This document shows, in pieces, positions 3,180 to 41,900 of a DNA stretch of 52,000 nt. This stretch comes from Cryptosporangium minutisporangium (lineage in GTDB: Bacteria; Actinomycetota; Actinomycetes; Mycobacteriales; Cryptosporangiaceae). Position numbers and translations under genes: made by a program. The DNA lies in assembly GCF_039536245.1 (NCBI RefSeq), contig NZ_BAAAYN010000039.1, positions 1-52,000 of the forward strand, read 5' to 3'. The notes below the pieces were generated by a model. It was not told where the DNA came from. It made no database searches and saw only the letters and a program-made list of their open reading frames with translations. Each line of letters begins with the position of its first letter. The stretch's first letter is position 1.

Positions 3180-3194
3180 CCAGCGAACGCCGGC

Positions 3195-5999: not shown

Positions 6000-6017
6000 C
6001 GGCTCGACCGAGCACGA

Positions 6018-8937: not shown

Positions 8938-8938
8938 G

Positions 8939-10891: not shown

Positions 10892-11022
10892 CGCCAGAGC
10901 CTTCCGATCGACGCGGTTAGGACGTCGCCGACCAGGCTTCCCGGCACACCACGTAGGACGGTACGCCGATTGGAGCCCGCCGGGAAGGCTTCGTCGTACC
11001 GCCGCGCGAGCGATCGGCTAGC

Positions 11023-12993: not shown

Positions 12994-13082
12994 CAGGCTT
13001 CCTTACTTCAGGCGGTCAGCGCGGCTGTGGCCCCGCGGACGACATCGGCGACGGAATGAGTGTGGCTGCGCAGTGAAGCTCG

Positions 13083-13601: not shown

Positions 13602-13627
13602 GATGAACCTCCCGCGGGGCGCGGCTG

Positions 13628-17783: not shown

Positions 17784-18755
17784 TCACGTCGACGATCGCT
17801 GGATGAGCAATCGTGAGTCGAAGCCGCCGCTGAATGCCACCTCCTCGCCCGCGAGGGCGGCGGCGACCGCTTGCGCACGCCGACGTGCTGCCTTGACCAC
17901 GTCGAATGTGACGGTGGTCAGTGGTGGGTCGGTGAGGCGGGCGGTGGGAATGTCGTCCACTCCGATGATGGCGAGGTCTTTCGGGGCGGCGAGCCCGTGC
18001 TCCCGTAGTCCGGCCAGCACGGCGATCGCAGTCTCGTCGTTGATGGCACACACGCCGGTGACACCCTGTTCCCGCCAGTGCGCCACGGCCCGAGCCGCGT
18101 CGGCGACCTCCAGGTCGACGTCCACGACCACCGGGGGGTTCAGCTGGGCCTCGGCGCAGGCATCGATCACGCCGGACAGGCGAGCCTCCGCGATCGGACG
18201 CGTCTCGGAATGCACGGACATGGCATAACCGAGGGATTGATGCCCGCGGGCGATCAGGTGCTCGGCCTGCGCCCGGCCGACGCGCCCCATCGGCCCGTCG
18301 ATGCCGCGGGAGAATTGCGACAGCACGACGTCCGCCCCGGCCCGGCGGAGGGCGTCGACCTCGCTGTGATCGACGGGCATCAGTGCTACGACGGCGGACG
18401 CGTTGAGAGCGGCGCACACATCGGGCAACGGACGGCTCTGCGCACCGGACAGGTGGGTCACCAGCGTGAGCCCGTAGCCGCTGAGCTCGCCCGCGAAGAC
18501 CTCGATGAAGCGACCGAGGTTCGAGCCCAACGGAAGCGCGGGAACCGCGAGCAACACCACGCTGCTCCGCCCGGCGGCGAGCGTCCGTGCTGAGGCGTAA
18601 GGCCGGTAGTCCAGGCGCCGGGCGGCGTCGAGGACCCGGCGACGAGTGTCGTCCGGGATCGTCTGGTCGGGTCGGTTGTTGAGCACGAAGCTGACGGTCG
18701 TGCGCGAGACGCCTGCGGCACGGGCGACATCGGCGCTCGTCGCGCGCTTGGACAT
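17784..18755 (-). CDS. LacI-family repressor of the divergent catabolic operon
   Basis: A 323-residue regulator. The N-terminal LacI helix-turn-helix (ATSADVARAAGVSRTTVSFVLNN) and hinge helix (RPYASARTLAAGRS) are followed by a periplasmic-binding-protein-like effector domain (GYAMSVHSETRPIAEARLSG, CAINDETAIAVLAGL, IGVDDIPTARL). ATG 18755 is chosen because it precedes the HTH directly and follows GGTGAGGGTG. It is transcribed away from the large operon that begins at 18961, so it is probably that operon's local repressor responding to the transported sugar or a breakdown product. Confidence 0.9.
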   Translation of the reverse strand: MSKRATSADVARAAGVSRTTVSFVLNNRPDQTIPDDTRRRVLDAARRLDYRPYASARTLAAGRSSVVLLAVPALPLGSNLGRFIEVFAGELSGYGLTLVTHLSGAQSRPLPDVCAALNASAVVALMPVDHSEVDALRRAGADVVLSQFSRGIDGPMGRVGRAQAEHLIARGHQSLGYAMSVHSETRPIAEARLSGVIDACAEAQLNPPVVVDVDLEVADAARAVAHWREQGVTGVCAINDETAIAVLAGLREHGLAAPKDLAIIGVDDIPTARLTDPPLTTVTFDVVKAARRRAQAVAAALAGEEVAFSGGFDSRLLIQRSST

Positions 18756-18813
18756 GGACACCCTCACCTCCCGCCGCCGGCACGCGGTCGTCGATCGCAC
18801 TGGCATCGTACGG

Positions 18814-18836
18814 CGTCGCCAATTCGGCCAGCGACG
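18814..18836. promoter_or_regulatory. Inverted repeat CGTCGC-N11-GCGACG
   Basis: Two perfect 6-bp half-sites (18814-18819 and 18831-18836) separated by 11 bp lie in the divergent region, 59 bp upstream of the LacI ATG. It has the same 11-bp spacer as a second inverted repeat near the other promoter. It could be an operator, or chance in GC-rich DNA. Confidence 0.25.
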
Positions 18837-18918
18837 ATTGCTCGCATTCTGCGGGCGCGCTCGGACCGGGCGGCAAGAGATGGCAAATCATTGACGGCAT
18901 TCGTCGACCCGTGTGAAT

Positions 18919-18943
18919 TTGAGCGCCTGCTCGGTTCGCTCAA
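18919..18943. promoter_or_regulatory. Inverted repeat TTGAGCG-N11-CGCTCAA upstream of catabolic operon
   Basis: Perfect 7-bp arms at 18919-18925 and 18937-18943 lie directly before the GAAGGAG ribosome-binding site of the first operon gene (ATG 18961). It may be a LacI operator with separated half-sites, or an RNA hairpin in the leader. LacI half-sites commonly carry such GAGCG/CGCTC sequences, though usually fused at a central CG. Confidence 0.35.
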
Positions 18944-18960
18944 CGAAGGAGTTCGGGCGT

Positions 18961-19977
18961 ATGCACGGTGAAGACCGGCAACGGGAGATTCAAAGTGTTC
19001 TCGCGACGGTCACGTTCGAGGCGGAGGAGCTCGAACAACTGCGGCGTGCAGTCGCTCCGGCGGAATTCGTGCAGAGGGCGCCCTGGGATGCGGCCGGAAT
19101 TGCCGAAGCCCTCGAGCGCGCGGACGTCGCGATCATCTCGGGCGACCTCGATCGACGGCACCTGGACGCGCCGCGTCTGCGGTGGGTGCATTGCGATCAT
19201 TCCGGCCTCACCCGATCCGCGGTGCCCGAGGTGTTCGAGAGAGGGCTACTCGTCACCGGCTCGGCCGGGCGCTCTGCTCCGGCGCTGGCCCAACACGGCT
19301 TCTACTTCGCGCTCGCGTTGAGGTTCGACGTCCGGCGACTGCTGGAGATGCAGGACGCACACCGCTGGCACGGCATCGAAGGCTTCGAACACAAGCACGC
19401 GCTCTGGGGCCAGACGCTGGGCATCGTGGGATTCGGGCACACGGCCAAGGAAATGGCCCGCCTCGGTCAGGCCTTCGGCATGCGCGTCATCGTCTATCGA
19501 CGCAGGTCCGCCGAGGTCGCGCCCGACGTCGACGTCATGCTGTCGGCCGACGACGGTGACACGATGGATCGGCTTCTCGCGGAGTCCGACGTCATCATGC
19601 TCGCCACCCAGCTGACCGACGCGACCCATCATCTCTTCTCCACCGACGAGTTCGCGGCGATGAAGACCACCGCCGTCCTCATCAACCTGGCCCGCGGCGC
19701 GGTCATCGATCAGGATGCGCTGGTGAAGGCGTTGCACAGCGGAGAAATCGCCGGTGCGGGCCTCGACGTCGCCGATCCCGAGCCGCTTCCTCCGGACGCG
19801 GCCCTCTGGGACGCGCCGAACGTTCTGATCACGCCGCACATGACCCCGGCCGTGCCCGATCGCACGCAACGCTCGATCGACGTCATCGTCGAGAACGTGC
19901 GGCGTTATCGCGCCGGCGAGCCACTGCTGAATGCGTTGACCGAACGTGACGTCTATACGCGAAATCGTGGCGCCTGA
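18961..19977 (+). CDS. D-isomer-specific 2-hydroxyacid dehydrogenase
   Basis: A 338-residue NAD(P)-dependent oxidoreductase interconverting 2-hydroxy and 2-keto acids. The NAD fold motif is GQTLGIVGFGHTAKEMARLG. The catalytic arginine is in NLARGAVIDQDAL, the glutamate in LDVADPEPLP and the histidine in LITPHMTP. Start ATG 18961 follows GAAGGAG; an upstream in-frame ATG (18913) lacks one. First gene of the operon repressed by the divergent LacI protein. With the second dehydrogenase downstream, it suggests that the final products of the pathway are hydroxy/keto acids (inference). Confidence 0.9.
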   Translation: MHGEDRQREIQSVLATVTFEAEELEQLRRAVAPAEFVQRAPWDAAGIAEALERADVAIISGDLDRRHLDAPRLRWVHCDHSGLTRSAVPEVFERGLLVTGSAGRSAPALAQHGFYFALALRFDVRRLLEMQDAHRWHGIEGFEHKHALWGQTLGIVGFGHTAKEMARLGQAFGMRVIVYRRRSAEVAPDVDVMLSADDGDTMDRLLAESDVIMLATQLTDATHHLFSTDEFAAMKTTAVLINLARGAVIDQDALVKALHSGEIAGAGLDVADPEPLPPDAALWDAPNVLITPHMTPAVPDRTQRSIDVIVENVRRYRAGEPLLNALTERDVYTRNRGA

Positions 19978-20023
19978 CGAACCCCCTATCCGTTGCGTTC
20001 ACCACAAAGGTGTAGTGAGGCAA

Positions 20024-21553
20024 ATGAAGATTCTTTCACGCTCGGTTCGCCGTGCCGTTTTGGTGGGTGCCGCCGCGCTGTTATTGACAGCTAGTGCCTG
20101 CAGCGATCCCGACTCCGACTCCGGCTCCGAATCGGCGGCCAGCATCACGATCGGCATGCAGGCGCCGATCAACAGCTTCGATCCGGCCGATCTGCTGGAA
20201 GGTCAGCAGGCGTATGTCTGGTCGGCGCTCTACGACACGTTGCTCCACATCGACAACGACGGCAAACTGCAGCCCAACGCTGCGGAGAGCTGGAAGTACT
20301 CCGACGACGCGCGCACCTTGACCCTGAAGTTGCGCGACAAGATGACGTTCTCGTCCGGAGACACCGTCACTGCGGCAGCGGTGAAGGCGACGCTCGAACA
20401 CACGATAGCCAGCGCGGGCTCCCAGCGGGGCAACCTGGAGGCCGTGACGGCGGTCGAGGCGCCCGACGAGCGTACGGTCGTCCTGAGTCTCTCGCGCCCG
20501 GACTCGAGCCTACTGATCTCCCTGAGTCAGGGTGCCGGTGTCATCGGGGATCCCAAAACGCTGAACACGCCCCGCACCACTTTGGATCCCGTCGGTTCCG
20601 GCCCGTACGTGCTGGACCGGAAAGCGACGGTCAACGGTTCCAGGTACGTGCTGCAGCGGCGGGACGACTACTGGAACGCCGACGCGTACCCGTTCCGGAC
20701 GCTCACGGTGCGGGTGATCGCGGACCGCACCGCGCTGTTCAACGCGTTGCTCTCCGGTGAGCTGGACGCCGGCACCGTCGACGCGAGCCAGGCCCGGGCG
20801 GTCAAGGGCGCGGGCCGTCAGCTGAAGCGTGTCGAGGGAGTCGCGATCGCCACGCTCGACCTCAACGACCGGGCCGGTACGCTCGCCAAGCCGTTGGGAG
20901 ACGTGCGGGTGCGGCGCGCGATCAACATGGCATTCGACCGATCGAAGATCGTCGAGAAGATCATCGGTGGTCTCGGACAGCCCACCACGCAGATCTTCAC
21001 CCCGCAGTCGCCCGCATTCGATCCGGCGCTCGACAAGAAGTACCCGTACGACCCCGCCGCCGCTCGCAAGCTCCTCGCGGAGGCCGGCTACGCGGCCGGA
21101 TTCAGCCTCACCATCCCCGCGACCGTGGTGTCCCAGATCCTGCAGCCGACGATCACGCAGTCGCTGGGAGACATCGGCATCACGGTGAACTGGAAGCCGG
21201 TGCCTCCTCAGGACTCCGGGCAGACCAAGGAATACGCCGTCTACTTCAACATGGCCGGCACGACGCCGACACCACGGACGATCACGCTCAAGTTGGCTCC
21301 GGACGGGTCGAAGAACCCCTTCAAGTACAAGACCCCCGAGCTCGCCGCGCTGATCGACAAGGCGAGCACTGTCACCGACCCCGAGCAGGCGGCCGGGATC
21401 TACCAGCAGATCAACGCCTACGTCGTCGACGATGCGTGGTTCGCGCCGATCTTCTCGATCAGCGCGAACTGGGTGACGAAGTCGGGCATCGAGTACCTGG
21501 GCAACGGCGCAGGCCTGCTCTCTAGCGTCAGGACGTTCGGTGTCACCGGGTAG
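20024..21553 (+). CDS. ABC transporter substrate-binding lipoprotein (family 5)
   Basis: A 509-residue extracytoplasmic solute receptor of the DppA/OppA type. Signal peptide and lipobox are visible in RAVLVGAAALLLTASAC. The family-5 pattern follows: FDPADLLEGQQAYVWSALYDTL, the AESW motif (NAAESWKYSDDARTLT), VRRAINMAFDRSKIVEKI, and AARKLLAEAGY. ATG 20024 follows GTGAGG. Family-5 receptors bind peptides, nickel and also oligosaccharides. The adjacent glycosidase genes favour a glycoside ligand here (inference). Confidence 0.92.
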   Translation: MKILSRSVRRAVLVGAAALLLTASACSDPDSDSGSESAASITIGMQAPINSFDPADLLEGQQAYVWSALYDTLLHIDNDGKLQPNAAESWKYSDDARTLTLKLRDKMTFSSGDTVTAAAVKATLEHTIASAGSQRGNLEAVTAVEAPDERTVVLSLSRPDSSLLISLSQGAGVIGDPKTLNTPRTTLDPVGSGPYVLDRKATVNGSRYVLQRRDDYWNADAYPFRTLTVRVIADRTALFNALLSGELDAGTVDASQARAVKGAGRQLKRVEGVAIATLDLNDRAGTLAKPLGDVRVRRAINMAFDRSKIVEKIIGGLGQPTTQIFTPQSPAFDPALDKKYPYDPAAARKLLAEAGYAAGFSLTIPATVVSQILQPTITQSLGDIGITVNWKPVPPQDSGQTKEYAVYFNMAGTTPTPRTITLKLAPDGSKNPFKYKTPELAALIDKASTVTDPEQAAGIYQQINAYVVDDAWFAPIFSISANWVTKSGIEYLGNGAGLLSSVRTFGVTG

Positions 21554-22298
21554 GCCGGCGATCGTCCTGCTGAACTCGCTGGGCACCACCGCCGCGATGT
21601 GGGACCGCGTCGTTCCGCGGCTGGCCGAGTCGTTCGAGGTGCTGCGCTACGACCAACGCGGGCACGGTAACGCACCGGTGCGGCCGACCACCGGGCTCGA
21701 CGATCTCGTTGACGACCTGCTCGGTGTGCTCGATCGGCGGGGCGTCGCACGGGTCCACCTCGCTGGAATCTCGATCGGCGGCATGATCGCTCTCCGCGCG
21801 GCGAGCCGCGTTCCCGACCGCGTCGCTTCGGTGACGGCACTGTGCTGCGCCGCCGCGCTCGATCGACGGAGTTGGACCGAGCGAGCACGCACCGTCCGCG
21901 AACACGGCCTCGACGCGATCGTGCCCGCGGTGATAGAGCGCTGGTTCACCACGGAGTTCCGGAGCCGTCGGCCGGAGGCCGTGCGGGCCTCCACGGAGAT
22001 GCTGCGGTCGACGCCGCGCGAAGGTTACGCGGTCGGGTGCGACGTGCTCGCCGAGGCCGATGTGCGCGCCGACCTGCCCGGCATCACCGCCCGGACCCTC
22101 GTCGTGGGTGGAGCCGAGGACCCGGCGACGCCGCCGGACGAACAGCACGCGATCGCCCGGGCGATTCCGCACGCCCACGTCGAGATCCTCCCGGCGGTCG
22201 CCCATCTCGCCCCGATCGCCGAACCGGAAACGATAGCGAAGCTCATCACGGCCAACGCCCTGGCTGCCGAGAGTGTTGGAGAGCAGACGTGGACATAG
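21540..22298 (+). CDS. Alpha/beta hydrolase, 3-oxoadipate enol-lactonase-like
   Basis: A 252-residue alpha/beta hydrolase. The oxyanion region LLNSLGTTAAMWD, nucleophile elbow GISIGGMIAL, acid GAEDPATPP and histidine in AVAHLAPIAEP resemble PcaD-type enol-lactonases. The GTG at 21540 lies inside the end of the binding-protein gene, so the genes overlap by 14 bp. In this operon it may open a sugar lactone rather than an aromatic lactone, because no aromatic ring-cleavage genes are nearby. Substrate unproven. Confidence 0.87.
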   Translation: MSPGRPAIVLLNSLGTTAAMWDRVVPRLAESFEVLRYDQRGHGNAPVRPTTGLDDLVDDLLGVLDRRGVARVHLAGISIGGMIALRAASRVPDRVASVTALCCAAALDRRSWTERARTVREHGLDAIVPAVIERWFTTEFRSRRPEAVRASTEMLRSTPREGYAVGCDVLAEADVRADLPGITARTLVVGGAEDPATPPDEQHAIARAIPHAHVEILPAVAHLAPIAEPETIAKLITANALAAESVGEQTWT

Positions 22299-23155
22299 GT
22301 TTTGTCGGAATGGGTGTGATGGGGCGGCCGATGGCGGCCAACCTCGTCGCTGCGGGACACCGACTGGTCGTCCACCGCGACACGCCCGCCGCGCGTGAGC
22401 TGCTCGGCACGAACGTGCGCTACGCGGTCTCGGCGGCGGACGCCACCCGCGCCAGCGACGTCGTCGTCCTGATGCTGCCGGACACACCCGACGTCGAAGT
22501 GGTGATGCGCGGCGACGACGGCGTCCTGTCCGCGCTGCAACCGGGCACGCTCGTCATCGACATGAGCTCGATCTCTCCGGCGGCGGAGCGGGAACTGGCC
22601 GAGCGGGTCGGCCGGGCAGGTGGGCACTACCTGGATGCGCCGGTCTCCGGCGGGGAGATCGGCGCCCGGGAGGGCACGCTCTCGATCATGGTCGGTGGTG
22701 ACCCGGAGACGGTCGACTGGGCCCGGCCGATCCTGGACGTCCTCGGATCCCGGGTCTCGCACGTCGGTGCCGTCGGGGCCGGCCAGGTGGCGAAGATCGC
22801 CAACCAGATCCTGGTAGGTGTCACGATCGAGGCGGTCGCCGAGGCACTTCGGCTGGTCGAGGCCGCCGACGTGGACCCGGTCGCCGTTCACAGCGCGTTA
22901 ATGGGCGGATTCGCCTCCTCCCGCGTGCTCGAGGTGCACGGTCCCCGGATGATCAAGGGCGAGTTCGAGCCGGGCTTCCGGATCAGGCTTCACCGCAAGG
23001 ACCTCGGGCTGGCCGTGGAGGCGGCTACCCAGCTCGACGTGGCGCTGCCGACCGCGAGCATGGTGCACCAGCTGATGAACGCGGCGGTCGCCGCGGGACT
23101 CGCCGACCGCGACCATTCCGCACTACGCCTCGTCCTCGACGGCTCCCGGCCGTGA
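22289..23155 (+). CDS. 3-hydroxyisobutyrate dehydrogenase-family oxidoreductase
   Basis: A 288-residue beta-hydroxyacid dehydrogenase. It has the dinucleotide motif IGFVGMGVMGRPMAANL, the substrate loop DAPVSGGEIGAREGTL and the catalytic lysine in GAGQVAKIANQILV. Relatives reduce tartronate semialdehyde or succinic/methylmalonic semialdehydes. GTG 22289 follows GGAGAG and overlaps the hydrolase end by 10 bp. In a sugar-acid pathway a GarR-like tartronate semialdehyde reductase role would fit (inference). Confidence 0.9.
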   Translation: MDIGFVGMGVMGRPMAANLVAAGHRLVVHRDTPAARELLGTNVRYAVSAADATRASDVVVLMLPDTPDVEVVMRGDDGVLSALQPGTLVIDMSSISPAAERELAERVGRAGGHYLDAPVSGGEIGAREGTLSIMVGGDPETVDWARPILDVLGSRVSHVGAVGAGQVAKIANQILVGVTIEAVAEALRLVEAADVDPVAVHSALMGGFASSRVLEVHGPRMIKGEFEPGFRIRLHRKDLGLAVEAATQLDVALPTASMVHQLMNAAVAAGLADRDHSALRLVLDGSRP

Positions 23156-24093
23156 TCACCTACGTCCTCCGCCGGCTGGCGACCGGCGTCGTCCTCGCGC
23201 TACTGGTCACCCTGATCACGTTCGCGCTGCTGAGCACGTCCTTCGACCGGGTGGTCGCCGGAGTGCTCGGCCCGGCGGCGACGCCCGAGCTGGTGGACGC
23301 CCGCAAAGCCGAGATGGGTCTGGACCGGGCCGTGCTCGTGCAGTACCTGGACTGGCTCGGCCACGTCCTGCGCGGTGACTTCGGGACGTCGTACTTCACC
23401 AGCGAGGACGTCAGGCACGCGGTGACCGCCCGGCTGAGCGTCACGCTCTCGATCATCGTCGTCGCACTGCTGATCAGCGTCGTGATCAGTGTGGTGCTCG
23501 GCGTCCTGTCCGCGACTCGCGGCGGGGTCGTCGACCGGGTGGCGCAGGGCGTCTCGCTGATCGGCAACCTGGTGCCGAGCCTGCTGATCGCGATCGTGCT
23601 CGTGCTGGTGCTGGCGATCAACCTGAAGCTCCTGCCCGCCACCGGCTTCACGCCGTTCGCCGAGGACCCCCTGCAGTGGGCGAAGACGATCACGATCCCG
23701 GTGATCGTGCTCGTCATCAACGGGATCGCGAACATGGCGGCTCAGATCCGCGGCAGCATGATCGACGAACTCCGTAAGGACTACGTGCGCACGCTGCGTT
23801 GCCGCGGAATTCCGGAACGGTCGGTGATCTACCGCCACGCCCTACGGAATGCGGCCGGACCGGCGCTGACCGTGCTCTCGTTCGAGTTCCTGCAGATGTT
23901 CGGCGCCGCGCTCATCATCGAGAACGTCTTCGCCCTGCCCGGCTTCGGCGCCTACGCGTTCTCCGCGTCGTTGCAGGGCGACATCCCGATCATCATGGGC
24001 ATCGCGCTGTTCAGCGTTCTGCTGGTCGTGAGCATCAACCTCGTGGTCGATCTGGTGAACGGCTGGCTCAACCCCAAAGCGAGAATCCATTGA
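23152..24093 (+). CDS. ABC transporter permease, DppB type
   Basis: A 313-residue inner-membrane permease with six helices. Typical DppB signatures are YVLRRLATGVVLALLVTLITF, MGLDRAVLVQYLDWLGHVLRGDFGTS and the EAA loop DYVRTLRCRGIPERSVIYRHALRNA. GTG 23152 overlaps the stop of the preceding gene (GTGA). Forms the translocation pore together with the DppC part of the following fusion protein. Confidence 0.93.
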   Translation: MITYVLRRLATGVVLALLVTLITFALLSTSFDRVVAGVLGPAATPELVDARKAEMGLDRAVLVQYLDWLGHVLRGDFGTSYFTSEDVRHAVTARLSVTLSIIVVALLISVVISVVLGVLSATRGGVVDRVAQGVSLIGNLVPSLLIAIVLVLVLAINLKLLPATGFTPFAEDPLQWAKTITIPVIVLVINGIANMAAQIRGSMIDELRKDYVRTLRCRGIPERSVIYRHALRNAAGPALTVLSFEFLQMFGAALIIENVFALPGFGAYAFSASLQGDIPIIMGIALFSVLLVVSINLVVDLVNGWLNPKARIH

Positions 24094-25862
24094 GCGTCGA
24101 AATCCTCACGACGGATCCAGGGCTGACCGCCGCGCCGCGCCGCTCGGCGTTGCGCCGGCTGTTGCGGGATCCGCAGGCGGTGATCACCGGCGGGCTGTTG
24201 CTGACCGTCCTCCTCCTCGGCCTGCTCGCGCCCCTCCTCACCGACCACGGTCCGAACGACGCATCGCTCGATGCCGTCAACGCCGAGGTGGGGACACCCG
24301 GCTACCTGCTCGGCGCCGACCAGAGCGGCCGGGACATCTTCGCTCGCCTGCTGTACTCGATCCGCACCAGCGCGCTCGCGGCGCTGATCGGAACCAGCGT
24401 CGCGCTCCTGGTCGGAGTGTCGGCCGGGCTGATCGGCGGATACTTCAACCAATACGTCCGAGGCCTCACCGAGTGGTTGTTCAGCCTCATCATGACGTTC
24501 CCCGGGCTGCTGCTGCTGATCGTGCTGATGCCGGTCACCGACGGCGACGTCGGGGTGACGATGGCGATCTTCGGAGTGCTGCTCTCCCCGGCCGTCTACC
24601 GCATCGTGCGGAACCTGGTGGTCGCGGTGAAGAACGAACTGTACGTCGACGCCGCGCGCGTCTCCGGGTTGCCCAGCAGCCGCATCCTCCGACGACACGT
24701 CCTCGTGATCGTTCGCGGTCCGATCATCATCGCTGCGGCGTTCCTGATGGGCTCGGCGATCGGCGTCCAATCCGGCCTGGCCTTCCTCGGCGTCGGCTCC
24801 AGCACGGTGCCGAGCTTCGGCGCGATGATCGCCGAGGGGTTCCGCAACCTCTACGTCGACGCCTGGCAGTTCGCCTGGCCGAGTCTCCTGCTCGGCCTCA
24901 TCACGGCATCGCTGGTCCTGCTCGGCAACGCCCTCCGCGACGCCCTCGAAGGCGCGCGCCCCAAGCCGGCGAAGCGCAGGACGTCGGCCATGCGCACGAC
25001 GGTCGCCACGGTGCCGGACGAGGACTCGTCCGAGCTGCTCACCGTGGACGACCTGGGCATCGCCTATCCCAGCCCGTCCGGAGAACTGCACGAGGTGGTC
25101 CGCGGAGTGTCGTTCACCGTCGGTGCCGGCGAGACGGTCGGCGTCGCGGGCGAATCGGGCTCGGGCAAGACCCAGACCGCCTTCGCGATCCTCGGCGCCC
25201 TCCCGGCCGAGGCGGTGGTCACCCGCGGCTCGATCCGCCTGAACGGTCGCGAGCTGCTCGGCCTGAGCCGGAGCGAGTTACGGAAGGTTCGCGGGAGCGT
25301 GGTCGCGTACGTGCCGCAGGAGCCGATGTCGAACCTCGATCCGTCGTTCACGGTCGGCGCGCAGCTGGTCGAGGGACTTCGGTCCGCGCGTGGCCTCTCG
25401 CGGGCCGACGCGCGGCAACGCATCCTCCGACTGCTGGAGCGAGTCGGCATCACCGATCCGCAGCGGACGTTCGACTCCTACCCTCACCAGATCTCCGGCG
25501 GAATGGCACAGCGCGTACTGATCGCCGGCGCGGTGGCGAGCGAGCCCGCGCTGCTCATCGCCGACGAACCGACGACGGCGCTCGACGTGACCGTCCAGGC
25601 CGACATCCTGGACCTACTGCGTGATCTCCGGCGAGAGCTCGGAATGGCCGTTCTGCTCGTGACGCACAACTTCGGCGTCGTCGCCGACAGCTGCGACCGG
25701 ATCGCGGTGATGCAGGAGGGCGAAGTCGTCGAGGTCGGTGACGTCGCGGACGTGTTCCGGAGCCCGGCCCATCCCTACACCCGGGCGTTGCTCGGCTCGA
25801 TCCTGCACGGTGACACCGTTCGCGCCGATCCGCCGGTCGCCGCCGGGAGCGAGGTGTCATGA
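24090..25862 (+). CDS. ABC transporter permease-ATPase fusion (DppC-DppD)
   Basis: A 590-residue protein joining two usually separate subunits. Residues about 20-285 are a DppC-type permease (GADQSGRDIFARLLYSIRTS, EAA loop YVDAARVSGLPSSRILRRHVL). Residues about 310-590 are an ATPase with Walker A GESGSGKTQ, signature ISGGMAQRV, Walker B LLIADEPTTALDVT and switch LLVTHNFGVV, ending with the oligopeptide-type HPYTRALLGS. The start TTG 24090 overlaps the dppB stop. This fusion occurs in actinobacteria and some other phyla and guarantees equal amounts of both parts. Confidence 0.92.
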   Translation: MSVEILTTDPGLTAAPRRSALRRLLRDPQAVITGGLLLTVLLLGLLAPLLTDHGPNDASLDAVNAEVGTPGYLLGADQSGRDIFARLLYSIRTSALAALIGTSVALLVGVSAGLIGGYFNQYVRGLTEWLFSLIMTFPGLLLLIVLMPVTDGDVGVTMAIFGVLLSPAVYRIVRNLVVAVKNELYVDAARVSGLPSSRILRRHVLVIVRGPIIIAAAFLMGSAIGVQSGLAFLGVGSSTVPSFGAMIAEGFRNLYVDAWQFAWPSLLLGLITASLVLLGNALRDALEGARPKPAKRRTSAMRTTVATVPDEDSSELLTVDDLGIAYPSPSGELHEVVRGVSFTVGAGETVGVAGESGSGKTQTAFAILGALPAEAVVTRGSIRLNGRELLGLSRSELRKVRGSVVAYVPQEPMSNLDPSFTVGAQLVEGLRSARGLSRADARQRILRLLERVGITDPQRTFDSYPHQISGGMAQRVLIAGAVASEPALLIADEPTTALDVTVQADILDLLRDLRRELGMAVLLVTHNFGVVADSCDRIAVMQEGEVVEVGDVADVFRSPAHPYTRALLGSILHGDTVRADPPVAAGSEVS

Positions 25863-26683
25863 GCACACCACTGCTGGAGGTCGACGACCTCCGCGTCAGC
25901 TACCCCGGGCGGGGCTTCCGCGCGCGCCCGGTCGACGTGCTCCACGGCGTCTCGCTGACGCTCGGAACGGGTGAGACGCTCGGGATCGTCGGCGAGTCCG
26001 GTTCCGGGAAGACGACGATCGGACGCGCCGTTCTGGGCCTCGTGCCGGCGCGCAGCGGCACGATCCGGTTCGCCGGCCGAGAGATCACCCGAGCGGCGAC
26101 CAAGGAGCGCCGGGCTATCGCTCGCGATCTCCAGGTCGTCTTCCAGGACCCGTACAGCTCACTCAATCCGTCGCTGACGATCGGCGACATCCTGAGCGAA
26201 CCGCTCGTCGTGCAGGGCGTCCGGGCAAGCGACGCCCGCGCCCGCGTGCGGATGCTCCTGGACCGGGTCGGGATGCCTGCCGACGCGGTCCACCGGCTGC
26301 CGCGCGAGTTCAGCGGCGGACAGCGGCAGCGGGTCGCGATCGCGCGGGCGCTCGCCCCGGAGCCAAAGCTCATCGTCTGCGACGAACCGGTGTCCGCGCT
26401 CGACCTGTCGACGCAGGCCCGTGTCCTCGACCTCTTCGTCGACCTTCAGCAGCAGACCGGTGTCGCCTACCTCTTCATCTCCCACGATCTGGCCGTCGTG
26501 CGCTACGTGAGCCACCGGGTTGCCGTCGTCTACCGGGGGGACGTCGTCGAGACCGGTCCGGCGCAGATTGTGACGTTCGACCCCGAACACCCCTACACGC
26601 GCAAGCTCCTCCTCGCCGCCCCGGTCGCCGACCCTGCCGAGCAGGCCGAACGGCGGGCCGCGCGGCAACGGCTCACGTCCTGA
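25859..26683 (+). CDS. ABC transporter ATP-binding protein, DppF type
   Basis: The second ATPase of the importer, 274 residues. Walker A GESGSGKTT, Q-loop VVFQDPYSSLNPSLT, signature FSGGQRQRVAIARAL, Walker B IVCDEPVSALD and switch LFISHDLAVVRYVSHRVAV are present. The C-terminal HPYTRKLLLAAPVADP is typical of the Opp/Dpp ATPase C-terminal domain. ATG 25859 overlaps the stop of the fusion gene (ATGA). Confidence 0.94.
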   Translation: MSTPLLEVDDLRVSYPGRGFRARPVDVLHGVSLTLGTGETLGIVGESGSGKTTIGRAVLGLVPARSGTIRFAGREITRAATKERRAIARDLQVVFQDPYSSLNPSLTIGDILSEPLVVQGVRASDARARVRMLLDRVGMPADAVHRLPREFSGGQRQRVAIARALAPEPKLIVCDEPVSALDLSTQARVLDLFVDLQQQTGVAYLFISHDLAVVRYVSHRVAVVYRGDVVETGPAQIVTFDPEHPYTRKLLLAAPVADPAEQAERRAARQRLTS

Positions 26684-26697
26684 ACAGGAGAACATCC

Positions 26698-28719
26698 ATG
26701 CCGAGCAGGTGGCACGAGCCGTTCACGGTTTTCCAGACGAACCTGCAGGAGATCGACGCGACGATGGACGTCGAGGCCGCGCTCGACGTCCTCGAACGCC
26801 ACGGCGCGGACACCTGGCTGCTCAACGCCGGTGGGATCGGCGCGTTCTACCCGACCGAGCTTCCGTTCCAGGCGCGGAACCCGTTTCTCGCCGATCGAGC
26901 CTCGGGCGACCTGCTGGGTGACGCCGTGACCGCGGCCGCCCGGCGCGGTGTGCGGGTGATCGCCCGCCTCGACCTCTCCAAGATCACCGCGTCCGTCGCC
27001 GCCGAGCACCCCGATTGGCTGTTCCGCACGGCCGCGGGCGAGCCGCAGGTGTACCACGCGCTGCACAGCACGTGCCCGTCCGCGGAGTACTACCAGGAGC
27101 GGGCGCTGGACATCTTCGACGAGATCCTCGACCGCTACGACGTCGGCGGGTTCTTCGTCAACTGGTTCAACTTCAACGAGCGCGACTACAGCGAGGTCGT
27201 CCACGGTGCCTGCCACTGCGGGGTGTGCGTCAAGCGGTTCGCCGAGTTCAGCGGGGGACTGGAACTCCCCGACGGCCAGCAGTCCCCGGGTTTCGGGCTG
27301 TGGCGGCGCTACACCGAAGCGACGCTGACCGGGCTGGGGCGGAAGTACGTCGACCATGTGCGCCCGCGCGGACGTGACCTCGCGATGATCCTGAACAGGG
27401 GCGGAACGGTCAGCTACCAGGAGGGCAACAACGCCTTCCGGCACTTCCCGGGCAAGGACTTCTGGCCACACGCGACGGCGGAGGCGGTGAGTGCCCATGT
27501 CACCACGCGGTCGCAGACCCCGCTGATCCTCAATGCGGCCGCACACATCGACTCGACGTACCGCCTCGGAGCCGAGCAGCCGGAACAGGTGGCCCACTAC
27601 CTGCTCCAGGCGATCGCTCGCGGTGGGAATCCGTCGACCTATCTCCTCGGAGCACCGGGGCGAGTTCCGATGGACAGCGTCGCGCTGGCCGAAGAGGTCT
27701 CCCGGTTCCACCGCCGGCATCACGACCTGTACGCGGCGCTGCGGCCTGCCGCCACCATCGCGCTGGTCAAGCCAGGGCTCGGACAGGGCGGCTACGCGGC
27801 CTACTTCGACATGCTCGAGGAGTTCCGGGGAGCCTACCTGGCGGTGCAGCAGAGGCACTTGCCGTTCGACGTGCTCACCCTCGGGGCGCTGCCAGCCGCG
27901 ACGCTCGATCACTACCGCCTCGTCCTACTGCCGAACGTGGGAGCGATCGGGTCGGAGGCGGCAAGCGTGCTCGACGCGTTCGTCGAGCGGGGCGGCAACG
28001 TGCTGACCACCGGGAACAGTGCGATCACCGCAGGCGGGGGGGTCGAGCTCGCAGCCGCGCCGGCGCTGCGCCGGATCGGCGCGGAGTCCTCCGGCGACGC
28101 GCTCCGGTCGACGTACGCGACACTCGCCGACCAGCCGCACCTGGACGAGTTCCGACTCGTCGACTCGGTCGTGCCGGTCTTCGGGGCGAACGCGCGCTAT
28201 GTCTGGAAGCCAGGTGCGACGAAGGCCGGATCCGTACTCGCGCAGGCTCCGTGGGGGCCACCGGAGCTCAGCTACGGCCACGTCGTGACCGGAGATCCCG
28301 CGGTCGCCTCGATCCGGTACGGGAAGGGCACCACCGCGACGATCCCGTGGACCGTCGGCCGCACCTATCGGGAGTTCGGCAAGACCGACGTGCGTGACCA
28401 CCTGCTGCGGGTGGCCGAGCCGATGGCCGACGCCCAGCTGACCGCGGACCTGCCCGAGCAGGTCGAGCTGATCCTCGGCCGCGACGACGAGGGCTACGTG
28501 GTGCACCTGCTCAACCTGACCGGGGCCGGGCGACGCTCGTTCGGGCCGCACGTCCCGATCGACGGCGGCCACCTCGTCCTCCGCCGCGCGGCGGGAAACG
28601 AACGAGCCACCGCCCTGGTCGCCGGCCGCGAGCTGACGGTCCGACGGAACGAAGACGCACTCGTCGTCGAACTGCCGACCATCGACCTGTTCGAGGTGGT
28701 CCGCATCCGACCGGCCTGA
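26698..28719 (+). CDS. Putative glycoside hydrolase, GHL6/GH42-like
   Basis: A 673-residue cytoplasmic protein without signal peptide. The N-terminal half is a TIM-barrel-like domain of the hypothetical glycosyl hydrolase 6 type: VIARLDLSK, HPDWLFRTAAGEP near residue 105, YDVGGFFVNWFNFNERD, and a cysteine cluster C172-C174-C177 (CHCGVC) before KRF. Residues about 370-450 resemble the GH42 beta-galactosidase trimerisation domain (PFDVLTLGALPAATLDHYRLVLLPNV, FVERGGNVLTTGNS). A small beta domain ends the protein. It starts 14 bp after dppF with AGGAGA upstream of the ATG. It probably cleaves the imported glycoside; substrate and catalytic residues are unproven. Confidence 0.75.
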   Translation: MPSRWHEPFTVFQTNLQEIDATMDVEAALDVLERHGADTWLLNAGGIGAFYPTELPFQARNPFLADRASGDLLGDAVTAAARRGVRVIARLDLSKITASVAAEHPDWLFRTAAGEPQVYHALHSTCPSAEYYQERALDIFDEILDRYDVGGFFVNWFNFNERDYSEVVHGACHCGVCVKRFAEFSGGLELPDGQQSPGFGLWRRYTEATLTGLGRKYVDHVRPRGRDLAMILNRGGTVSYQEGNNAFRHFPGKDFWPHATAEAVSAHVTTRSQTPLILNAAAHIDSTYRLGAEQPEQVAHYLLQAIARGGNPSTYLLGAPGRVPMDSVALAEEVSRFHRRHHDLYAALRPAATIALVKPGLGQGGYAAYFDMLEEFRGAYLAVQQRHLPFDVLTLGALPAATLDHYRLVLLPNVGAIGSEAASVLDAFVERGGNVLTTGNSAITAGGGVELAAAPALRRIGAESSGDALRSTYATLADQPHLDEFRLVDSVVPVFGANARYVWKPGATKAGSVLAQAPWGPPELSYGHVVTGDPAVASIRYGKGTTATIPWTVGRTYREFGKTDVRDHLLRVAEPMADAQLTADLPEQVELILGRDDEGYVVHLLNLTGAGRRSFGPHVPIDGGHLVLRRAAGNERATALVAGRELTVRRNEDALVVELPTIDLFEVVRIRPA

Positions 28720-28765
28720 CGCACCGCCGGCGCCCAACCCCGCTCTCTCATGTCGAAGGATGTTC

Positions 28766-31360
28766 ATGCCCTCGCTCGATGCCAGCGCCCCTCCCACCGT
28801 GGACGGCACGTCCTCCGTCCTCGAGCAGGAGACGGTCGCCTGGGCCGTGGGCAGGCTGCGGAGTGCCGCGCCACGGCGCGGCGACCTCACCGTCGTGCTG
28901 ATCGCCGCCGACGACGGCGCACGTCTGGCGTTGGAAGGCCTGCCCGACCCACTGGACGAACCGGAGTCCTACACCCTCTGGGCCAGGAGCGACGTGCGGG
29001 TGGTGATCAGTGCGGCGGACGAACGGGGATTCGCCTATGCGCTCACCGAGCTGGCGGAGCGTCTCACCGCAAGTCCGGGGCTGGAGCCAGGGAGCCCGGA
29101 ACAGCACCGTCCCGCCGTGCCGATCCGGGGGATCGCGCGGGCGTTCTCCAGCGTCGAGGAGGACCTGCCGTGGTTCCGCGACCGCCGGTTCTGGCTCGAG
29201 TACCTCGATTTCCTGGCCGCACAGCGGTTCAACCGGTTCCACCTGGCGCTGGGCATGCAGTACAACTACGGCACCCCGTCCGGCCGCCACGCCACGGACA
29301 ACTACCTCTGCTTTTCCTACCCCTTCCTCCTCGACGTCCCCGGCTCCGGCGTCCGTGTCCAAGGACTGTCCGAGCAGGGACGGGACGACAACTTCGCGGC
29401 GCTCGCCTTCATCGCCCGGGAATGCCGACGCCGCGGCCTGAGCTTTCAGCTCGGCCTGTGGAACCATGCCTACGACTACGGATGGGCCTCCGAACACACC
29501 CATCCGGTCCTCGGACTGGCCCGGCAGACCCACGCGGAGTACTGCGCCGCCGCGCTCGGGATGCTGCTGGAGAAGATTCCGGAGATCGACGGCCTGACGC
29601 TCCGGCTGCACTACGAGGGCGGCATCTTCGAGAACGAACGCCAGGTTTTCTGGGAACGCATCTTCCGGGCCGTCTCCGACGCCGACCGGCCGATCACGCT
29701 GGAACTGCACGCCAAAGGCGTCGATCAGGCGCTGCTCGACGCCGCGCGGAAGCCGAATCTCACGCCGATGCTGTCTTTCAAGTACTGGGCAGAGCACCTG
29801 GGCCTGCCCTACCACCAGGCGTCGATCCGAGCGTTCGACCGCGCGTTGCCGGTCAGCCGGGAACGCCTTGGCGAGCTGGCGAAACTCATCGGCATCACCG
29901 AACTCACCCGCCGGTTCACCCGCTACGGCTACGCCGACTTCCTCGACGAAGACCGGGACGTCGAGGTGATGTTCCGGGTGTGGCCCGGCACCCAGAAGCT
30001 GCTGCTCTGGGGCGATCCTGCTCTCGCTGCCGGCTACGGCAGGTACGCGACGTTCGGCGGCTCGCGAGGCGTGGAATTCAGCGAGCCGTTGTTCTTCAAG
30101 GGCCGCAAGGGCAGCGGCGTGCCCGGCGGCCGCGAGGTGTACGCGCGGGACGGCCTCCGGCTCGGCGCCGCGGACTGGCGCAAGTACCGCTACACCTACC
30201 TGCTCTGGGGCCGGCTGACCTACGACCCGGACGCCCGGCCGGAGACCTGGCAGCGGCTGCTCCGCGCGGACTACGGCGACGCCGCGGCGGACGTCGAGCA
30301 GGCACTGGCGTCGCTGAGCCGGATCCTGCCGCTGGTGACCGTGGTGCACGCGCCGAGCGTGAGCAACAACGTGTACTCACCCGAGACCTACCGGGACGTG
30401 CCTCTCTCGGCCTGGGTACGAGCCCGGCCGTACGAGTTCGACAGCCGTGCGCCCAACTGGGTCGAGGTGGGCTCGTTCGACCCGGCCCTCTTCTACGCGG
30501 TCGGTGAGTACGCCGACGACGCGCTCGCGGGCGCCCTCTCCGGACGGTACACACCGCTCGAGGTCGCCGGCTGGATCGAACGATTCGTCGCCGACGGCGA
30601 GGCGGCGACCGAACGGGCCCGCACGCACGCGGACACCGACGACCCGCAAGTGCAGCGGACCCTGATCGACGCCGCGGCACTGGCCGGCCTCGGTCGGTTC
30701 TTCGCGGCCAAGCTCCGCGCGGCCGTCGACTACGCCTTCTTCCTGCGGAGCGGCGAGCCGGCGAGGATCGACGAGGCGGTGCGGCTGCTGGAGGCGGCCC
30801 ACGCGGCCTACGGAAGCGTCCGCGACGTCACTGCTGGCGTCTATCGGCCCGGCCTGGCGTTCGGTCCGGCGGAGACCGAGTGGGCGGACTGGGGGGCCAA
30901 CCTCGACGCGATGGCCGACGATCTGCGAGCGCTGCGTCTGGAGCGCGACCGGGCCGGCGCCGCACCGCCCCCCGCACTCGCCTCGGCGCCCGCTCGGCGC
31001 GAGACCCGGTGGGACTGTGGCGTACGCGTCGAGGTTCCCGAGTCGTTCGTACGTAGCGAGCCGCTCGTGGTGCGGGTGGTGGGGGAGGGGGTGGCCGACC
31101 TATCGGGCGCGGCGCTGTATTACCGGTACGTCGACCAGTCGAAGGACTACGTGCGCGCCGAGATGAAACGTACCGACGAGGGATTCGCCGCGACGATCCC
31201 GGCCGAGTCCACGGCGACTTCCTACCCGCTGATGTGCTTCGCCGAGGTTCGCCGCGTCGACGACGCTCCGGTCTTCGTGCCCGGCTTCGACCCCGATCTG
31301 TCCAACCAGCCGTACGTGGTGGTCCACAGCACGGAGTGGAAGGCAGGCCGCACCGGTTAG
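28766..31360 (+). CDS. Putative glycosidase of unassigned family
   Basis: An 864-residue protein with no signal peptide. Residues about 1-105 resemble the GH20b/GH67 N-terminal domain (VVISAADERGFAYALTELAERL). A barrel-like region follows: IRGIARAFSSVEEDLPWF, LEYLDFLAAQRFNRFHLAL, and LRLHYEGGIFENE with E284 as a candidate acid. A helical region of about 200 residues and a C-terminal Ig-like sandwich (GAALYYRYVDQSKDYVRAEM) complete it. I cannot assign a CAZy family. ATG 28766 is preferred over ATG 28760 because GAAGGA sits at the right distance. Last gene of the operon; its stop overlaps a remnant on the other strand. Confidence 0.75.
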   Translation: MPSLDASAPPTVDGTSSVLEQETVAWAVGRLRSAAPRRGDLTVVLIAADDGARLALEGLPDPLDEPESYTLWARSDVRVVISAADERGFAYALTELAERLTASPGLEPGSPEQHRPAVPIRGIARAFSSVEEDLPWFRDRRFWLEYLDFLAAQRFNRFHLALGMQYNYGTPSGRHATDNYLCFSYPFLLDVPGSGVRVQGLSEQGRDDNFAALAFIARECRRRGLSFQLGLWNHAYDYGWASEHTHPVLGLARQTHAEYCAAALGMLLEKIPEIDGLTLRLHYEGGIFENERQVFWERIFRAVSDADRPITLELHAKGVDQALLDAARKPNLTPMLSFKYWAEHLGLPYHQASIRAFDRALPVSRERLGELAKLIGITELTRRFTRYGYADFLDEDRDVEVMFRVWPGTQKLLLWGDPALAAGYGRYATFGGSRGVEFSEPLFFKGRKGSGVPGGREVYARDGLRLGAADWRKYRYTYLLWGRLTYDPDARPETWQRLLRADYGDAAADVEQALASLSRILPLVTVVHAPSVSNNVYSPETYRDVPLSAWVRARPYEFDSRAPNWVEVGSFDPALFYAVGEYADDALAGALSGRYTPLEVAGWIERFVADGEAATERARTHADTDDPQVQRTLIDAAALAGLGRFFAAKLRAAVDYAFFLRSGEPARIDEAVRLLEAAHAAYGSVRDVTAGVYRPGLAFGPAETEWADWGANLDAMADDLRALRLERDRAGAAPPPALASAPARRETRWDCGVRVEVPESFVRSEPLVVRVVGEGVADLSGAALYYRYVDQSKDYVRAEMKRTDEGFAATIPAESTATSYPLMCFAEVRRVDDAPVFVPGFDPDLSNQPYVVVHSTEWKAGRTG

Positions 31361-31552: not shown

Positions 31553-32608
31553 TCACCTGCGAGCGCCGGTCATCAGGTCTCGTCCATGCAGCGATCGCTG
31601 CTGGCTGCGCGCGGTGGTCGAGGCCCGGACGACGAGACGGGCCGGAAGCGTCACCGGTTCCTGGGAGCGGGGCTGCGCGCCGCGCACGATCGCGAGCAGA
31701 TTGTGGACGGCCGTCCGGCCCATGTGGCGCAGGGGTGCCGCCACCGTGGTCAGCGCGGGGGTAACCAGGGCGGCCGGGAAGATGTTGTCGAATCCGATGA
31801 CGCTGACGTCGCGGGGAACGTGGGCACCGTGTGCGGCGAGGGCACGGATGAAGCCGATCGCCATGAGGTCGTTGTAGGCGATGACCGCGCTGGTGGGGTG
31901 GTGGACGAACTCGGCGGCGGCGCCCCCCCCCCCGGCGACGGTGGGTGCGTACGGTCCGAGGCGGCGGGCGTGTAATCCGAGGAGGGGGGCGTTTTCCCGG
32001 AGTGTCCGCCACCGCATGCCATCGACCCAGGACGCCTCCGGTCCCGCCAGGTAGGTCACGCGTTCGTGTCCGAGCTCGGCGAGGTGGGCCGCGGCGTGGC
32101 GCGCGCCGCCTGGATTGTCGGTGACCACGCAGGGGACATCGACCAGTGCGCGGTTGAGCAGGACGACCGGGCGTTGCTTCGCGATCGTGCGGATCGACGA
32201 GTCGGGCATCCGGGATGTCGCTAGGACGATGCCATCAACGGCGGCCACCGCTCGTTCGAGCGTCTCGCGTTCCTGGGCACTGGACTCTTGGGCGTCGGAG
32301 AGCAACAGCGTGTAGCCGGCTTCCGCAGCGGTGGCTTGAGCACCACGGATGATCTCGTTGTGGAATGGATTGGTGACGTCGGAGATGACGAGCGCGATCA
32401 TCGACGTCCGGCCGGCCTGCAGCGCCTGGGCTATCGGGTTGACGTGGTAGCCCAGTACTGACGCGGCCTCGTGGATTCGGCGTGCGGTTTCTGAGCTGAC
32501 GCGGCCGGGACGGGCGAACGCACGGGAAACCGTGGAAGTGGCGACACCCGCAGCTCTCGCGACGTCCTGCATCGTTGGTGTCCGTCCAGGGCGAGCAAAG
32601 TCGGTCAT
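31553..32608 (-). CDS. LacI-family transcriptional regulator
   Basis: A 351-residue LacI repressor. HTH TMQDVARAAGVATSTVSRAFARPG, hinge VNPIAQALQAGRTSMIALV, and effector-domain motifs DVTNPFHNEIIRGAQ, YLAGPEASWVDGMRW and VIGFDNIFPAALVTPAL are present. ATG 32608 follows GGGGAAGAGG. The coding strand contains a run of eleven G (11 C at 31923-31933 on the plus strand) giving AGGGGA, a slippage-prone tract in the effector domain. No intact operon lies next to it on its own strand. It could control itself through the palindrome at 32767 or act on the converging glycoside operon. Confidence 0.9.
   Translation of the reverse strand: MTDFARPGRTPTMQDVARAAGVATSTVSRAFARPGRVSSETARRIHEAASVLGYHVNPIAQALQAGRTSMIALVISDVTNPFHNEIIRGAQATAAEAGYTLLLSDAQESSAQERETLERAVAAVDGIVLATSRMPDSSIRTIAKQRPVVLLNRALVDVPCVVTDNPGGARHAAAHLAELGHERVTYLAGPEASWVDGMRWRTLRENAPLLGLHARRLGPYAPTVAGGGGAAAEFVHHPTSAVIAYNDLMAIGFIRALAAHGAHVPRDVSVIGFDNIFPAALVTPALTTVAAPLRHMGRTAVHNLLAIVRGAQPRSQEPVTLPARLVVRASTTARSQQRSLHGRDLMTGARR
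31923..31933. repeat. Homopolymer of 11 C
   Basis: An uninterrupted run of eleven C on the plus strand within the second LacI gene, encoding glycines on the minus strand. Gain or loss of one base would truncate the effector domain. Such tracts are prone to slippage in vivo and to sequencing error. Confidence 0.8.
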
Positions 32609-41899: not shown

Positions 41900-41900
41900 G

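Follow-up and report, generated by a model that had tools for sequence, protein, structure and literature searches.

Introduction

Bacteria use D-glucuronides through UidA, UxaC and UxuB, and in the glycolate/glycerate pathway (glcDEF, gcl, garR, glycerate kinase and malate synthase genes) tartronate semialdehyde is made by glyoxylate carboligase. Among the glycoside hydrolases, BPa0997 of family GH138 is an alpha-D-galacturonidase of rhamnogalacturonan II (RG-II) encoded in a Bacteroides polysaccharide locus, and alpha-L-fucosidase isoenzyme 2 of Paenibacillus thiaminolyticus (structure 6tvk) is an enzyme that we take to belong to family GH151. Here we analyse a 52,000-nucleotide stretch of the Cryptosporangium minutisporangium genome (hereafter the window; almost the entire 52,026-base contig C39 of a 9.23 Mb genome) carrying an operon that joins a Dpp/Opp-type ATP-binding cassette (ABC) importer, a distant GH138 relative, a GHL6 protein and predicted enzymes of C2 and C3 acids. 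We propose that this operon and its relatives form a LacI-controlled module that scavenges an acidic, glucuronic-acid-bearing glycoside, yielding glucuronate, a C3 aldehyde acid and a C2 acid, a reading to which we give about an even chance of being correct. A literature search, which covered few subscription journals, returned no paper describing this gene set by title or abstract.

Results

The operon and its recurrence in other lineages

The locus consists of nine genes on the + strand (18913-31360) that diverge from a LacI-family gene (LacI 1; 17784-18806, - strand). A preliminary description had taken these as one tightly packed unit in which most starts overlap the preceding stop. All ten open reading frames (ORFs) were found, and five of the eight junctions within the operon overlap (starts 21540, 22289, 23152, 24090 and 25859), the other gaps being 85, 14 and 40 bases; a sixth junction overlaps if the binding-protein gene starts at 19946. 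The likely start of the GarR-like gene is the GTG at 22289, the ORF from 21842 being over-long (the family match begins at residue 151). We extend the unit to a second LacI gene (LacI 2; 31553-32572) because close relatives of LacI 2 sit within the same clusters elsewhere: it is 61% identical to the LacI within the Actinomadura cluster and 83% identical to another LacI of the C. minutisporangium genome, which neighbours uxaC/uxuB on contig C6. The importer comprises a family 5 substrate-binding protein, two permeases and two ATPases with oligo_HPY domains (25.2 against 27.1 for that of the second ATPase, 25859-26683), the composition of a full Dpp/Opp-type system, with one permease fused to one ATPase. 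The DppC-DppD fusion, a single 590-aa frame in the window, occurs in seven of the loci compared (577-605 aa), and DppC and DppD are separate genes in genome G051 and in Rhizobium.

One scan of genome contigs gave 25 GH138-like loci. The set of GH138-like gene, GHL6 gene, D-2-hydroxyacid dehydrogenase (DHA) gene and Dpp importer was present in Actinomadura (L003), Blastococcus (L004, L014), Modestobacter (L005, of genome G279, and L006) and the actinomycete G253, and in relatives where the fetched stretch reaches, the GarR and PcaD-like hydrolase genes join it. Since the set recurs in several genera, it is not a product of chance. Importer and glycosidase genes co-occur in many lineages, so that the gene-neighbourhood comparison suggested in the preliminary description did not find them always apart. 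Genome G051 has the order GarR-GHL6-DHA-Dpp and no GH138-like match. Paenibacillus, Rhizobium and Ensifer carry smaller versions of the gene set. In Paenibacillus L022 the order is GH138-like-GHL6-GHL6-GarR-MR/MLE-DHA, with a different ABC transporter, both GHL6 copies being only 26-28% identical to that of the window, and plasmids of Rhizobium acidisoli and Ensifer adhaerens carry GarR, GHL6 (47-48% identity), Dpp, DHA and MR/MLE genes. Plasmid records with a match numbered 42 and 11, of which six matches and one further stretch of one record were opened. Among the permeases of the non-Dpp transporters of relatives, five of six match a general permease family and look by eye to be of MalFG type.

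The GH138-like gene is rare, occurring in 6 of 298 genomes of the order and in 1 of 396 genomes of a phylum sample (the C. minutisporangium genome itself); no further copy was found in the own-family and phylum samples. GHL6 matches were present in 17 of the 298 order genomes, with close ones (at least 46% identity) in five, and both markers together in four, two of them of one genus.

Two glycosidase-like proteins related to GH138 and to an alpha-L-fucosidase

The last gene of the operon encodes a protein of 866 codons (28760-31360), not of the 864 residues first reported. It matched no Pfam family and scored 36 bits with the alpha-galacturonidase model NF049878, far below the cut-off of 1300. 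A profile of 28 relatives searched against the PDB (hmmsearch) matched BPa0997 in two stretches (E 1.8e-17), a distant relation, and an AlphaFold model (mean pLDDT 85.4) gave BPa0997 as the leading Foldseek match (E 2.4e-28), with GH84 as runner-up family (1.3e-13). Identity to BPa0997 is 13-16% over the fold. Residues E286 and E345 were invariant in 28/28 relatives (the alignment holds 28 of the 29 proteins of the called cluster; truncated L024 was omitted, and L023, with a broken frame, lies outside that cluster). In the profile alignment E286 lies one residue off E294, one of the two catalytic glutamates of BPa0997, and the alignment ends short of the other, E361, which we take from the name of a mutant. 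By profile and predicted fold, the 866-aa protein is thus a distant relative of GH138 (alpha-galacturonidase) and a candidate uronidase.

The 673-aa GHL6 protein is nearest to the alpha-L-fucosidase 6tvk, both with a profile of ten GHL6 proteins (E 1.5e-26) and with a structural model of moderate confidence (pLDDT 70.4; best fold match E 2.6e-32, GH42 enzymes next), and is likewise a candidate glycosidase. Neither N-terminus has the look of a signal peptide by eye, and the folds are of glycosidase type, in line with the two putative cytoplasmic glycosidases of the preliminary description. A GHL6-domain protein, Mfuc3, was one of seven soil-metagenome proteins active as alpha-L-fucosidases and combines GHL6 with a beta-galactosidase middle domain (PMC4723247).

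These relations bear on a route in which the locus would use a side-chain fragment of RG-II, the GH138-like protein being an alpha-galacturonidase and the GHL6 protein an alpha-L-fucosidase that act with beta-glucuronidase, and glycolate coming from apiose. The profile and fold matches to GH138 and to an alpha-L-fucosidase, the activity of Mfuc3 (PMC4723247) and the nearby beta-glucuronidase genes of relatives are consistent with it. The low identity to GH138 over the fold, however, marks a great sequence distance, and the apiosidase family PF13204 was found in one of eight genomes searched and was absent from that of the window. Nor were catabolic genes for apiose, rhamnose or fucose noticed in the clusters, which were looked over by eye with no search made. 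We consider this route quite unlikely.

GH138-like genes also occur in other settings. In Kribbella (L007-L011, L021) a conserved block at the GH138-like gene includes two ABC permease pairs and a ~545-aa hexapeptide-repeat protein; family search was run on the L007 block, and L007 and L008, the two loci scanned, contained no glycolate or glycerate genes. Haladaptatus plasmids (haloarchaeal) have three places each with GH138-like relatives (best 30% identity). In Pseudolysinimonas (L023, 10001-12383) and Rhizobium johnstonii (L065, 12001-14465) the gene lies in two overlapping frames and is either broken or mis-sequenced. The Actinomadura cluster adds GH1 and GH3 proteins.

Glucuronate genes accompany the cluster in relatives

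The clusters of Actinomadura, Modestobacter, Phytoactinopolyspora and G253 include a beta-glucuronidase gene, and three of them also have glucuronate isomerase and/or a UxuB-like reductase. Scores in relatives' clusters were 884 and 899 bits against a cut-off of 544 for beta-glucuronidase and 525 against 387 for glucuronate isomerase. The UxuB-like protein, of the mannitol-dehydrogenase family, also resembles D-arabinitol dehydrogenase and is below both cut-offs. Across the order, beta-glucuronidase scored above the cut-off in 14 of 298 genomes, including all four with both a GH138-like and a close GHL6 gene; by hypergeometric arithmetic, with kinship not corrected, this would be expected about three times in a million. 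These neighbour genes in relatives suggest that the substrate is a glucuronide. In the C. minutisporangium genome, contig C6 carries a beta-glucuronidase gene (875.5 bits), UxuB-like and UxaC-like genes, the LacI that is closely related to LacI 2, and lar genes.

LarA-type epimerases convert mannonate to gluconate (PMC7583248, PMC11770544), and one group of them sits in a uronic-acid gene context (PMC7583248). In our set, Lar genes accompany those for glucuronate isomerase and a UxuB-like reductase on C6 (L085, 8557-9894), in G253 (L051, 10469-13235) and in L087 (11473-12702). They encode a LarA-like protein (Lar_N) in Actinomadura and LarC-type nickel-insertion proteins on C6 and in G253, with LarE-like proteins assigned by eye only. 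The nickel-pincer Lar proteins may convert mannonate to gluconate by epimerisation, which would give glucuronate catabolism a second way out.

A shared operator ties the genes together in relatives

Of 22 intergenic regions chosen by hand, nine held 14-base sites like GGCAACCGGTTGCC; all nine are on C6 or in G253 or Modestobacter G279, and mononucleotide shuffles (n=30) gave at most 5 regions. A strict search for 18-base palindromes gave no shared site. A scoring matrix, trained on the nine sites that it then re-found, gave 51 matches in ~416 kb of cluster sequence (47 intergenic; three are L005 copies of G279 sites) against 8 in 400 kb of control sequence. The sites lie upstream of GH138-like, GHL6, DHA, GarR, binding-protein, LacI, beta-glucuronidase, UxaC, LarA/LarE-like and GH3 genes, in Actinomadura (weaker variants), Modestobacter, Blastococcus, Phytoactinopolyspora, Allonocardiopsis, G253 and C6, not before every gene in each. 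That a LacI operator ties the hydrolase, importer and glucuronate genes into one regulon is therefore well supported for the relatives; for the window operon it is no more than a suggestion. An own-genome scan found nine places, with about one third as many for a reversed control pattern; those beyond the two C6 sites adjoin genes without evident link. Matches to GKCAAYCGGTTGMC with up to three mismatches numbered 62 in the window against 33 expected. The divergent LacI 1 may read another site.

The operator also bears on the transporter. The best models for the window importer are peptide/nickel families, with scores below their cut-offs; this speaks for an ordinary peptide or nickel transporter linked to the enzymes by accident. 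Its adjacency to glycosidase genes in many lineages argues against this, as do operator sites upstream of importer genes in Modestobacter, Phytoactinopolyspora, Allonocardiopsis, G253 and Actinomadura, and we regard an incidental linkage as highly improbable.

Predicted enzymes of C2 and C3 acids

The two hydroxyacid dehydrogenases of the preliminary description are present in the operon. They had been assigned to redox steps of a sugar acid and are better read as a GarR-like reductase and a D-2-hydroxyacid dehydrogenase of C2/C3 acids than as oxidising an intact sugar acid; the redox steps foreseen there are supported as acting on small hydroxy acids, and its lactonase-like hydrolase corresponds to the PcaD-like protein (Table 1). 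With the GarR model TIGR01505 (cut-off 340.75), the Ensifer (362.8), Rhizobium (359.3) and Paenibacillus (341.1) proteins scored above the cut-off and the Blastococcus protein (325.1) below. Glyoxylate reductase and related models were below cut-off for DHA. Among ten loci with a close GHL6 gene (at least 45% identity, window included), DHA was present in 10/10 and GarR in 9/10, the locus without GarR being L006, which ends before the place of GarR in its sister G279; neither gene occurred in any of 20 control stretches.

Across 32 cluster loci, GlcD was found in 7, malate synthase (A or G) in 6, glycerate kinase (either family) in 4, beta-glucuronidase in 6, GarR in 10 and DHA in 12; the 20 controls yielded a single malate synthase G and a single glycerate kinase, and nothing for the remaining families. 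The controls were 20-kb stretches from four genomes at hand-set steps, and the cluster loci span 12.6-52 kb; G279 stands for L005, and Kribbella L009, L010, L011 and L021 were omitted as near-copies of L007/L008. In relatives' clusters malate synthase G or A scored 1001 against 565 and 753 against 594. The glycerate kinase that accompanies GarR is of TIGR00045 in Blastococcus and Modestobacter (278-285 against 168) and of the unrelated MOFRL family in Ensifer, whose cluster also has malic enzyme. Relatives' GlcD proteins (412-492 against 567.9) never exceeded the cut-off. The glc genes adjoin a GH138-like or GHL6 gene in other lineages: G028 has GH138-like-glcD-glcE-glcF with a divergent malate synthase gene, and G253 a lone glcD between GH138-like and beta-glucuronidase genes. 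Two pairings in relatives point to C3 and C2 acids as products: GarR with a glycerate kinase of one or the other family, and glycolate oxidase with malate synthase.

Glyoxylate carboligase was above the cut-off of one family model in none of nine genomes and in one of 14 control genomes. Seven of the nine best carboligase-like matches were re-examined, of which six were acetolactate synthases and the seventh had no family; L071 and L076 were left unannotated. Ordinary glycolate salvage via glyoxylate carboligase, considered as an alternative, is disfavoured by both results. Tartronate semialdehyde thus probably does not come from glyoxylate: judged by this one family model, a role of GarR in the customary route from glyoxylate is unlikely, and its substrate should derive from the imported compound, directly or by aldol cleavage.

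A different origin of the small acids would be a sugar-acid route. Here cleavage by the glycosidases would set free an aldonic or aldaric acid, or its lactone; the lactone would be opened by a lactonase (PcaD-like or SMP-30), and an MR/MLE dehydratase would give a 2-keto-3-deoxy acid. In possible later steps, an aldolase would yield pyruvate together with either tartronate semialdehyde or glycolaldehyde, and the route would end with GarR, aldehyde dehydrogenase and glycolate oxidase. Clusters with an MR/MLE enzyme include those of Blastococcus L004, Paenibacillus L022, Rhizobium L061, Ensifer L062 and Marinovum L063; the Ensifer stretch further encodes SMP-30, an aldehyde dehydrogenase and, truncated at its edge, an RraA-like aldolase, and G124 has aldehyde dehydrogenase, DHDPS and FAH-RraA. 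The clusters of Rhizobium, Ensifer, Paenibacillus and Blastococcus L004 agree better with this route than do those of the window type, which have no MR/MLE match and in which no aldolase was noticed (by eye, with no search made). Moreover, the MR/MLE proteins of the clusters are of several types, often ~30% identical. When the L004-type dehydratase was searched in nine genomes, six had relatives of 30-35% identity and G091, G051 and G679 had none at 1e-30; the Rhizobium-type dehydratase was searched in plasmids. We give the sugar-acid route an appreciable chance, clearly below even. In L057 (G124, 104-14880) a GH138-like gene lies with another ABC importer, an MR/MLE dehydratase, a DHDPS-family enzyme, an aldehyde dehydrogenase and an FAH-RraA fusion, the layout of a sugar-acid pathway in another member of the GH138-like family.

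Discussion

From gene content, conservation, the operator shared in relatives and the predicted folds, we propose a substrate, products and an order of steps for the glucuronide-scavenging module. The Dpp/Opp-type importer would take the intact glycoside into the cytoplasm, where the GHL6 and GH138-like enzymes would cleave it and the PcaD-like hydrolase would open an ester or lactone. The unusual moiety would leave as tartronate semialdehyde (C3) and glycolate or glyoxylate (C2). GarR would reduce tartronate semialdehyde to D-glycerate for phosphorylation by glycerate kinase, the D-2-hydroxyacid dehydrogenase would handle the matching 2-keto acid, and the C2 unit would enter metabolism via glycolate oxidase and malate synthase. 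For glucuronate the route would run through beta-glucuronidase, UxaC and a UxuB-like reductase, whose genes relatives have inside the cluster and C. minutisporangium on a separate contig; a LarA-type mannonate/gluconate epimerase may follow.

Several observations weigh against this proposal. Neither the GHL6 nor the GH138-like protein has a known enzyme activity, and the GarR-like and PcaD-like proteins of the window score just below their equivalog cut-offs (Table 1; 340.75 and 255.85). A family scan of the window found no beta-glucuronidase, glycerate kinase or malate synthase, and its GlcDEF genes lie 8 kb off behind unrelated genes, with GlcD at 485-549 bits (485.1 against 567.9) and GlcF at 299.1 against 333, short of the TIGR00387 and NF008434 cut-offs. 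With these genes at a distance and the glucuronate genes on another contig of the same genome, the word complete, once applied to the locus, is too strong for the window. The window also has no good operator copy: the scoring matrix gave no match in it, and its four intergenic regions, like the five from Actinomadura, were not among the nine that bear sites. In relatives, the glc and malate synthase genes have no operator of their own, save the G253 glcD inside an operator-led operon. Beta-glucuronidase had no match in G051, which has GHL6, GarR and DHA, and none above the cut-off in G028 and Paenibacillus G680. MR/MLE dehydratases (L004, L022, L025, L026, L061, L062, L063, L065 and G124) have no role in the scheme. 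Lastly, GlcD, GlcF, malate synthase, glycerate kinase and GarR are all absent from 13 of 21 scanned GH138-like loci, and the GH138-like family therefore has other uses too.

A more specific and, in our judgement, unlikely version of the glucuronide proposal takes the substrate to be a glucuronide with an oxidatively ring-opened ('seco') pentose, as in achyranthosides and betavulgarosides, with the GHL6 and GH138-like proteins acting as acetal hydrolases. In saponins of Achyranthes and beet, a dicarboxylic acid that arises by oxidative 3,4-diol cleavage of a terminal pentopyranose is acetal-bound to glucuronic acid (PMC8858921). By our own deduction from the chemistry described there, hydrolysis of the seco-pentose would give tartronate semialdehyde and glycolate, and that of the decarboxylated type glyoxylate and glycolate. 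GarR, glycolate oxidase and malate synthase take these compounds as substrates, and glucuronate would remain for beta-glucuronidase, UxaC and the UxuB-like reductase; this version would also explain a GarR without glyoxylate carboligase. If so, this would be the first bacterial pathway known to us for ring-opened sugar acetals of plant saponins, and finding it in Rhizobium and Ensifer would imply a wider presence of seco-sugars in soil than has been assumed.

Should the seco-pentose version be wrong, a catabolic route would still have to be placed in rhizosphere and soil carbon turnover. In the comparison, two glycosidase-like proteins that have no assigned substrate are tied to a defined product set (glucuronate, a C3 aldehyde acid and a C2 acid). 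Support for this link comes from distant phyla, from glycerate kinases of two unrelated families that fill one role, and from the operator that relatives share.

Features of the window

The coordinates of the operon and associated features are collected in Table 1. The gene caller used on relatives' loci, trained on homologous ORFs, still merged, missed or trimmed some genes, such as uxaC on C6. Two neighbouring CNNM/CBS membrane proteins (33374-35796) are encoded between LacI 2 and the glycolate oxidase genes, and a 738-aa protein with an Hsp70-like domain and WD40 repeats lies at 43319-45535.

Table 1. Annotated features of the C. minutisporangium window; scores are in bits, with model cut-offs where given.
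Feature	Position	Strand	Basis
LacI-family regulator 1, divergent	17784-18806	-	Pfam LacI and Peripla_BP_3; divergent position
Weak operator copy upstream of first gene	18882-18895	-	3 mismatches to GKCAAYCGGTTGMC; not significant alone
D-2-hydroxyacid dehydrogenase (DHA)	18913-19977, possible later start 18961	+	PF02826, 178 bits
Substrate-binding lipoprotein, Dpp/Opp-type importer	19946-21553, likely start 20063	+	SBP_bac_5, 242 bits; lipobox-like LTASAC
PcaD-like alpha/beta hydrolase (lactonase or esterase)	21540-22298	+	TIGR02427, 243.3 bits vs cut-off 255.85
GarR-like tartronate semialdehyde (2-hydroxy-3-oxopropionate) reductase	22289-23155	+	TIGR01505, 336.4 vs 340.75
Permease, DppB/NikB type	23152-24093	+	BPD_transp_1
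Fused DppC-type permease and DppD-type ATPase	24090-25862	+	OppC_N, BPD_transp_1, ABC_tran, oligo_HPY, one frame
DppF-type ATPase	25859-26683	+	ABC_tran, oligo_HPY
GHL6 protein, candidate intracellular glycosidase/acetal hydrolase (GH42/GH151-like)	26698-28719	+	PF14871, 84 bits
GH138-like protein, candidate intracellular uronidase	28760-31360	+	no Pfam family; profile and fold match to GH138
LacI-family regulator 2	31553-32572	-	type found within relatives' clusters
glcD-glcE-glcF glycolate oxidase genes, possible partner 8 kb downstream	39303-43232	+	family matches below strict cut-offs

Comparison with described systems

The 866-aa protein resembles BPa0997 (PDB 6hze-6hzg) in its leading profile and fold match, which spans the catalytic and helical parts, and differs in its low identity, its presumed cytoplasmic location and its place in an actinomycete ABC-import locus. 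The 673-aa protein shares profile and fold with the P. thiaminolyticus alpha-L-fucosidase and is only 17% identical to it, and the close GHL6 group is found with DHA and GarR; no fucose genes were noticed in the clusters (by eye, with no search made). With Mfuc3 it has the GHL6 domain in common (PMC4723247).

As in the glycolate/glycerate pathway, relatives carry GlcDEF, GarR, glycerate kinases and malate synthases beside the enzymes, whereas the glyoxylate carboligase that makes tartronate semialdehyde in that pathway was not above the cut-off in any of the nine genomes. As in D-glucuronide use by UidA, UxaC and UxuB, relatives' clusters contain beta-glucuronidase and glucuronate isomerase above the cut-offs, and the second locus of the C. 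minutisporangium genome has beta-glucuronidase above the cut-off with UxaC- and UxuB-like genes; the relatives' UxuB-like protein is, however, below the fructuronate reductase cut-off. To that known route the clusters described here add Dpp-type import, two further glycosidases, enzymes of C2/C3 acids and a LarA-like protein.

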